DNA from: Auritidibacter ignavus
GTDB lineage: Bacteria; Actinomycetota; Actinomycetes; Actinomycetales; Micrococcaceae
DNA: 64,000 bases
Assembly (NCBI RefSeq): GCF_003703835.1
Contig: NZ_RDQR01000008.1
Location: 1 to 64,000 of the forward strand
Direction of reading: 5' to 3'
The position numbers and the translations under genes were made by a program. Shown here in pieces: positions 45,622 through 47,039 of the stretch (its first letter is position 1; each line of letters begins with the position of its first letter). Under the pieces are notes generated by a model that worked only from the letters and a program-made list of their open reading frames with translations, did not search any database and was not told where the DNA came from.

Positions 45622-45674
45622 CCCAATATTTTTCACACCGACAACCCAGTCAACAACACCCGAAGGTGTCGACC

Positions 45675-46520
45675 ATGACCCGCTATGAGGTAACTCCACA
45701 GGATCTTCAGCATCCTGCGGACACGCTGGCGGTATACTTTAACCTGAAAGACGCCACGCTACGCACCCGTACTGATGCCCGCTATGGGATCTATCTGGCC
45801 GAATCATCGACCGTGGTGCGCCGGGCGTTGATGGCGGGGCACACCCCGCGCTCCTTTCTGCTGGCCCACCGGTACCTGGACTCCTTTGCCGATGTGTTGG
45901 CGGCGTACCCCGAGGTGCCGGTATTCACCGCCGATGACGACCTGCTTGCGGCACTGACCGGATTCCATCTGCATCGCGGGGCGCTGGCGGCGATGGAACG
46001 ACCCGCACCGAGGACGTTGGAGGCGGTCACCGGGAAAGGCACCCGGCGGGTGATCGTGGCCGAAGGGGTCAATAATCATACCAATGTGGGCTCAATTTTT
46101 CGCACCGGCGCGGCATTGGGCTGGGACGCGGTCATTCTGACTCCCACCGCAGCCGATCCGTACTATCGGCGCGCATTGCGGGTGTCGATGGGCGCGACCT
46201 TCACGTTGCCCTTTGCTCGGGTAACCCATACGGTCTCGGCGATCCAGCGACTGCAGGCCCAGGGGTTCACCACGATCGCGTTAGAATTGACCGATCAGGC
46301 CCAGGATATCGGTGATCCGATGTGGCAACATCTCGATCGGCTGGCTTTGGTCCTCGGCGCTGAAGGCCCCGGAATCACCCAACCGACCCTGGAAGCCGTG
46401 GATGCCCACGTGCAGATCCCGCAGCACACCGGGGCCATCGAGCACACCGGGGTCGACTCGCTCAACGTCGCCCACGCGGCCTCGATCGCCATGTGGCAAT
46501 TGCGCGCCCCATCGCTCTGA
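45675..46520 (+). CDS. TrmH/SpoU-family RNA 2'-O-methyltransferase
   Basis: SAM-dependent RNA ribose methyltransferase of the SPOUT class. The 281-residue product has an N-terminal substrate-binding part and the SPOUT knot motifs: NVGSIFRTGAALG near residue 140 (motif 1, with catalytic Arg), LALVLGAEGPGI near 220 (motif 2) and SLNVAHAASIAMW near 260 (motif 3). ATG 45675 has GAAGG 8 nt upstream; GTG 45666 overlaps that site. The target, tRNA or rRNA, is not known from sequence. Confidence 0.92.
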   Translation: MTRYEVTPQDLQHPADTLAVYFNLKDATLRTRTDARYGIYLAESSTVVRRALMAGHTPRSFLLAHRYLDSFADVLAAYPEVPVFTADDDLLAALTGFHLHRGALAAMERPAPRTLEAVTGKGTRRVIVAEGVNNHTNVGSIFRTGAALGWDAVILTPTAADPYYRRALRVSMGATFTLPFARVTHTVSAIQRLQAQGFTTIALELTDQAQDIGDPMWQHLDRLALVLGAEGPGITQPTLEAVDAHVQIPQHTGAIEHTGVDSLNVAHAASIAMWQLRAPSL

Positions 46521-46611
46521 TCGGCCTGGCACGGCCCCAGCCCCAGCACTGACAGACCCGGCGTGATGTCGGTGTCGCCAGGGCCATTGGCCGTGCACGG
46601 TACCAACGGTG

Positions 46612-46708
46612 TATGATGAATAGCTGGCCCTGATGGGCTATTGCACGATGATTGATCGATCTTTCGTGTCCCTGGCAAAATCCAGGGACACCCAGCGAAG
46701 GAATCCTG
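46612..46708 (+). promoter_or_regulatory. Structured leader of rpmE2 with promoter
   Basis: TATGAT at 46612-46617 is a good -10. The transcript would carry a leader of about 85 nt with two hairpins. TGGCCC/GGGCTA at 46625-46640 has a TGAT loop. A 10-bp stem has its left arm at 46666-46675 and right arm at 46682-46691, with a CAAAAT loop. The second ends just before the ribosome site GAAGGA (46697-46702). This is where a ribosomal-protein autoregulatory leader would lie; L31 leaders are known in several bacterial groups, but I cannot check a match. Confidence 0.65.
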
Positions 46709-46966
46709 ATGAAAACTGATATTCACCCCGATTACCACTTGGTAATCTTCAACGATCTGGCCTCCGGCGAAAAAGTGCTGACCCGGTCCACCGTCACCTC
46801 CGAGCGCACCATGGAGTGGGAAGACGGCAACGAGTACCCGGTCATCGACGTCGAGATCTCCTCAGTCTCTCACCCGTTCTACACTGGTAAACAGCGCATT
46901 ATGGACAGCGCTGGTCGTGTGGAGCGCTTCAACGCCCGCTTCAAAGGCTTCGGCGGTAAGAAGTAA
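46709..46966 (+). CDS. rpmE2: 50S ribosomal protein L31 type B
   Basis: Zinc-independent form of ribosomal protein L31. The 85-residue product begins [16 protein letters not shown], has [17 protein letters not shown] near residue 48 and the [12 protein letters not shown] end. It lacks the CxxC pairs of the zinc-binding A type. Where both forms exist, B replaces A in zinc shortage under Zur control. I saw no clear Zur box here. The start has GAAGGA 6 nt upstream. A strong terminator follows. Confidence 0.95.
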
Positions 46967-46993: not shown

Positions 46994-47039
46994 AGCTCCC
47001 ATTCGGTCAGTTTCGACGACCGGGTGGGAGCTTTTGTTT
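46994..47039 (+). terminator. Rho-independent terminator after rpmE2
   Basis: AGCTCCCA (46994-47001) pairs with TGGGAGCT (47025-47032), with an inner CGGTC/GACCG stem and a TTTTGTTT tract. It is the clearest intrinsic terminator in the window. The last bases overlap the stop of the convergent ABC gene. Confidence 0.92.

Follow-up and report, generated by a model that had tools for sequence, protein, structure and literature searches.

The gene rpmE2 of Auritidibacter ignavus, encoding type B ribosomal protein L31 (bL31B), follows a folded leader that a first-pass annotation had proposed as a candidate autoregulatory RNA. Is this leader a structured RNA under selection, and if so, what would it do for L31? 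We examined it in the 64,000-nucleotide stretch of contig NZ_RDQR01000008.1 analysed here (the window) and in relatives of the organism. Its features are collected in Table 1.

Table 1. Features of the rpmE2 leader and gene, in window coordinates.
Feature	Position	Strand	Basis
rpmE2 promoter, -10 box (TATGAT)	46612..46617	+	sequence reading; TANNNT conserved in related leaders
Hairpin 1 (UGGCCC/GGGCUA), transcript 5′ end	46625..46640	+	fold; similar YYGG in relatives
Basal helix, 5′ side; partner 46695-46702 (covers the Shine-Dalgarno sequence)	46660..46667	+	predicted fold; not a family trait
Hairpin 2, 10-bp stem, loop CAAAAU; the conserved element	46666..46691	+	sequence, fold, covariation
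Family-wide core of hairpin 2	46668-46689	+	covariation
Shine-Dalgarno sequence GAAGGA	46697..46702	+	sequence; block resembling AAGG in alignment A2
rpmE2 gene for bL31B, 85 aa	46709..46966	+	NCBIfam NF002462, E 1.2e-39

Layout of the leader and control signals around it

Both hairpins claimed by the first-pass annotation are present, and each folds better than shuffled sequence. The fold energy is -9.9 kcal/mol for hairpin 1 (z -2.42, 1 of 200 shuffles as good), -15.5 kcal/mol for the 8-bp core of hairpin 2 with four downstream bases (z -5.12, 0 of 200), and -36.9 kcal/mol for the whole leader at 46612-46720 (z -3.43, 0 of 200). The description of the second stem as a perfect 10-bp helix could be confirmed base by base: GUGUCCCUGG (46666-46675) pairs with CCAGGGACAC (46682-46691) at 10 of 10 positions around the loop CAAAAU (46676-46681), and 5 nt separate the end of the stem from the start of the Shine-Dalgarno sequence, with the ATG at 46709. 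We found no terminator hairpin with a T run in the leader and rejected transcription attenuation on this ground. Downstream of the gene, an inverted repeat (AGCTCCCA/TGGGAGCT, 46994-47032) with a T-rich tail lies between rpmE2 and a convergent transporter gene; it is likely a terminator that the simple scan missed owing to its long loop. The upstream gene on the same strand (45666-46520) encodes a relative of rRNA/tRNA 2′-O-methyltransferases that falls below the RlmB cut-off.

The predicted fold also contains a basal helix, not mentioned in the earlier annotation, in which the bases just upstream of hairpin 2 pair with the Shine-Dalgarno sequence and bury it. Such a helix could by itself hide the ribosome binding site, as a thermometer or a default-off switch. 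Across 69 leaders, the pairing of the upstream flank with the Shine-Dalgarno region scores -6.54 kcal/mol against -6.55 kcal/mol for shuffled flanks and reaches p<0.05 in only three, so the basal helix is at most a local addition and occlusion is rejected as a shared mechanism. Purely structural control would also leave the conservation of the hairpin loop unexplained, and we consider it very unlikely.

A simple sigma-70 scan of the leader returned no full promoter and no -35 match. The TATGAT box named as a -10 element is nevertheless in place, and TANNNT followed by a short spacer and YYGG is kept in 70 of 79 related leaders (10 of these loci being without hairpin 2), compared with 15.3 in shuffles (maximum 25). 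This conserved spacing supports a promoter with a predicted start at ~46622-46623, upstream of both hairpins; a start downstream of 46691, which the annotation had listed as evidence against a regulatory leader, is not what the spacing predicts. A similar pattern occurs in 22 of 50 leaders of type-A L31 genes, compared with 2.0 in shuffles (maximum 6), making the region equivalent to 46608-46630 a promoter and start pattern shared by L31 genes of both types. The bases of the YYGG region seem, in type-A leaders, to make the foot of the hairpin described by Rfam family RF03158. A 5′ YYGG resembling hairpin 1 is found in Microbacteriaceae loci without hairpin 2 as well, and the 5′ end of the leader may serve a separate function.

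Control by Zur is the usual arrangement for zinc-independent L31. The genome has a single match to PF01197 over the cut-off, leaving rpmE2 as the only L31 gene found and Zur with no zinc-binding paralogue to set it against. An order-wide Pfam search gave one PF01197 match each in 12 of 12 Micrococcaceae genomes among those listed, and type-B L31 thus appears to be the sole L31 of Micrococcaceae cells. The annotation had seen no Zur box, and this observation stands: using a Zur consensus with up to 3 mismatches, we found none within 1 kb, the number of matches was that of shuffled sequence, and the nearest match lay more than 1 kb away. We therefore rejected Zur control of rpmE2.

Conservation and covariation of hairpin 2

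We surveyed 150 leaders by pattern (sets of 30, 40, and 80, in which some genomes occur twice and, in one set, a few start codons are off by at least one codon), including those of Arthrobacter, Micrococcus, Kocuria, Rothia, and Nesterenkonia. A hairpin of the CUGG-6-CCAG type was read in 135 of them, one being a misread long form (L091), and 107 of the 135 carry the loop CAAAAU. Two of the 15 leaders without the short hairpin have a long form (L102 and L149) and 13 have neither; the records of these 13 name either genera of the Microbacteriaceae or that family itself. CUGG-CAAAAU-CCAG is nearly invariant across Micrococcaceae. One genus, g15 (L013, L021, L026, L029, and L069), has the loop UCCCAA with a G-U closing pair, and some of its members score below the covariance model used in the genome searches. 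Three records, L132 (Curtobacterium sp. S6), L135 (Acidobacteria bacterium G2_11), and L146 (Sporosarcina beigongshangi), hold a Micrococcaceae-type rpmE2 together with the hairpin and are probably mislabelled or contaminated. In one locus, an abiF RNA match upstream of rpmE2 (L043:90-125, minus strand) scores exactly at the Rfam gathering score of 37 bits.

The covariance model, R1, comprises the hairpin and the Shine-Dalgarno sequence and was built from 43 leaders, some of them from the genomes searched, so that those rows match by construction. It matched in 147 of 149 Micrococcaceae genomes (E<=0.05), 148 of which have an rpmE2 protein match. All 146 best matches that could be set against an rpmE2 position lie directly upstream on the same strand, leaving two of the 148 genes without a match (in G043 and G067), with the deviant UCCCAA loop present in congeneric relatives; the one further genome, G066, matched the model weakly (E 0.01) and gave no rpmE2 match. 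Order-wide, R1 was found in 33 of 297 genomes at E<=0.002, namely 23 Micrococcaceae, 9 of one sister-family genus (g104), and a stray far from rpmE2 (G224). At the level of the class it was found in 15 of 394 genomes at E<=5e-4: 6 Micrococcaceae, 8 of the same sister-family genus, and 1 of another family. Within the studied genome, a pattern search for the 14-mer core outside the locus gave three copies with one mismatch, compared with a single match for the reversed control sequence; no Rfam family, and hence no rRNA, was found at the loci of these copies. Hairpin 2 is therefore all but restricted to the 5′ untranslated regions of L31 genes, as is expected of an L31 leader.

A second expectation for such leaders is a conserved secondary structure with compensatory changes, and hairpin 2 has this too. 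Alignment A1 holds 85 distinct segments, obtained from the 150 rows after removal of the 15 without the pattern hairpin and of the long-form L091; alignment A2 holds 43 hand-picked segments out of 69 non-redundant ones. In A1, 90.4% of the cells of the 8-bp stem are paired, and 106 cells show double changes, compared with 39 in shuffles (none of 500 reached the observed number) and 8-47 with slid partners; the covariation score is 0.327, compared with 0.115. CUG and CAG are invariant, three of the four loop-proximal pairs never vary, and the loop-closing pair hardly does; the outermost two pairs of the studied 10-bp stem are not general in the family. Since related sequences can mislead shuffles, we also traced the changes along an rpmE2 tree covering 88 leaders and found 11 branches with pair-to-pair double changes, compared with 0-3 for slid partners; the same tree has 19 pair-breaking single changes and 10 double changes that are not pair-to-pair. 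The covarying pairs that the annotation had suggested looking for among Micrococcaceae leaders are thus there, and the absence of compensatory changes that it had named as grounds for dropping the idea was not what we observed. In addition, G-U accounts for 47.5% of the non-Watson-Crick cells, compared with 24.9% in shuffles (none of 2000 reached this share). Hairpin 2 is a real structured RNA.

Longer versions of the element occur in two groups. In the genus Brevibacterium (family f37; the L149 and L261 leaders are the same) the core reads GRGC-A-CUGG-CNG-(helix)-A-YCAG-GS-GCYC. Alignment A3, made of 16 non-redundant segments of the Brevibacterium family plus one added by hand (L271), is 95% paired, with double changes at 8 of 14 pairs and 35 double-change cells compared with 11.8 in shuffles. 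A model built from this form, R2, matched in 34 of 396 genomes of the order, all of them of the Brevibacterium genus, and two loci from other genera of the Brevibacterium family (L259 and L287) lack the element. From 30 Nesterenkonia genomes searched we obtained 24 further leaders, 16 with the short hairpin and 8 with the long form; among the latter, 7 match CUGG-CNG-(helix)-A-YCAG exactly and the eighth (L311) has a five-base variant. Of 23 distinct cores from Brevibacterium and Nesterenkonia, 22 have a distal helix spanning 5 bp or more, compared with 0.4 in shuffles. Within one genus, the hexaloop and the C-N-G/A internal loop with its distal helix occupy the same place.

These results bear on two ways in which hairpin 2 could be something other than an RNA signal. 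The repeat TGG-CAAAAT-CCA is short and palindromic and could in principle be a DNA operator bound by a repressor protein. The G-U enrichment together with the compensating changes indicates selection on RNA, and on this ground we rejected the DNA palindrome; moreover, the element lies downstream of the predicted start, and in the long forms the half sites are pushed apart by a covarying helix whose length varies, an arrangement that would be incompatible with a dimeric repressor site. We regard a DNA operator as extremely unlikely. GC-rich leaders often fold, and hairpin 2 might have been a chance fold of this kind, a reading of negligible probability that is contradicted by the covariation, the G-U enrichment, the placement before rpmE2, and the distal helices of the long forms.

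Comparison with described L31 leaders

Eckert and Weinberg 2020 (PMC7247131) predicted five L31 leaders, one of them for Actinobacteria. The annotation's suggestion of an Rfam search brought no match: the L31 leader families do not hit the studied leader at E up to 10 or match in the scanned type-B loci, and the RF03158 gathering score was reached in neither, although RF03158 recovers 12 of 20 class-level type-A L31 loci in a positive control and the search therefore works. Hairpin 2 thus falls outside the known L31 leader families and behaves like a new one.

The L31-Actinobacteria leader (RF03158) shares with hairpin 2 a single hairpin just before the L31 gene and a 4-bp YYGG/CCRG helix. Its layout is 3 bp, a 1x2 loop, CCGG/CCGG, a UUCA/AC loop, and a distal helix, while that of Brevibacterium is 4 bp, a 1x2 loop, CUGG/YCAG, a CNG/A loop, and a distal helix. 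By eye the two look strikingly alike, each with a small lower loop, an asymmetric upper loop in which the 5′ strand is longer by two bases, and a helix beyond it, and some Nesterenkonia show a similar layout. In contrast, the studied hairpin reads CUGG-CAAAAU-CCAG rather than CCGG-UUCA/AC-CCGG, has no two-storey layout, and precedes a type-B gene, whereas the RF03158 control loci precede type-A L31. With no score and a different core, membership in RF03158 or another Rfam family was rejected.

Descent of hairpin 2 from the L31-Actinobacteria leader is suggested by layout, and cross-searches with models do not favor it. R2 gave 4 weak matches in 47 short-form loci of the family and sister family (E at least 1.2, none spanning the CUGG hairpin as such), missed both L091 and L102 in a set of 10 loci that included these long forms, and gave 2 weak matches in 20 type-A loci. 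R3, the type-A model (alignment A4 holds 28 of 34 type-A segments), gave 54 weak matches in 53 loci with a best E of 0.16; of the few that were compared with the leader position, none fitted. Since models built from each form miss the others, we do not file the element under RF03158, and the link between short and long forms comes from the shared CUGG-C..-A-YCAG core read directly rather than from a model score.

The remaining known motifs resemble hairpin 2 in outline. Those described for Coriobacteria, Corynebacteriaceae, and Firmicutes are likewise single hairpins upstream of rpmE, predicted from covariation (PMC7247131); they are set apart here by the Rfam non-match. The gamma-proteobacterial rpmE operator is also a hairpin next to the Shine-Dalgarno sequence in the 5′ untranslated region, with a single ribosomal protein gene downstream, but it is described as needing internal bulges for control (PMC10931766, PMC9825181), whereas the studied hairpin, read here from sequence, has an uninterrupted stem topped by a conserved hexaloop and precedes a type-B gene. 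In the literature that we searched, which included few subscription papers, we found no description of an rpmE2 leader in Micrococcaceae or of this sequence. As far as Rfam 15 and this literature show, hairpin 2 is an undescribed L31 leader motif.

Proposed control by L31B

We propose that the leader is a cis-acting RNA operator through which L31B represses its own translation, a reading to which we assign a probability of about three in four (0.77), with the ligand, the repression, and the block of initiation all inferred. Hairpin 2 would form in the 5′ untranslated region of the rpmE2 mRNA, and surplus L31B without a free ribosome to join would bind it through the CUGG/YCAG stem and the CAAAAU loop; in the long forms, the protein would contact the C-N-G/A internal loop in place of CAAAAU. 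Bound L31B would then keep the 30S subunit off the GAAGGA sequence 5 nt downstream, acting at translation initiation. The proposal draws on E. coli, where bL31 is reported to use its disordered N-terminal segment to bind an irregular hairpin adjacent to the Shine-Dalgarno sequence of rpmE and thereby repress that gene, and where bL31B acts on the same rpmE RNA (PMC10931766, PMC9825181). That the conserved part of hairpin 2 is the loop with its closing pairs also points to recognition by a protein.

The protein need not be L31B. Hairpin 2 is known from its position and conservation, and it could be bound by another ribosomal protein, a general RNA-binding factor, or some other ligand, or serve as an RNase or mRNA-stability element; the latter role would suit hairpin 1, given its place at the start of the transcript. 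We consider this unlikely, though it is the alternative that we take most seriously, because the element accompanies rpmE2, with the order-wide matches confined to Micrococcaceae and one sister-family genus apart from the single stray, and association with a single gene is a usual mark of ribosomal protein leaders (PMC7247131).

If L31B is indeed the ligand, hairpin 2 would be a further L31 leader beside the five predicted, one whose conserved core spans just 14 nt and which belongs to a family with type-B L31 as the only L31 found. The presence of short and long forms in one genus offers a direct test of whether L31B reads the bases of the loop or the shape of the internal loop. More tentatively, a single ancestral L31 operator may have outlived a change of ligand: type-A L31 would have been replaced by type-B as the sole L31 in several Micrococcales families with the layout kept, and the core would have passed from CCGG-UUCA/AC-CCGG to CUGG-CNG/A-YCAG with a distal helix (Brevibacterium and some Nesterenkonia) and on to the minimal CUGG-CAAAAU-CCAG (most Micrococcaceae and one sister genus). 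We think this history possible rather than probable; if true, the series would be a graded case in which RNA and protein co-evolved toward a very small ribosomal protein binding site. Hairpin 2 also bears on why one ribosomal protein has so many unlike leaders.
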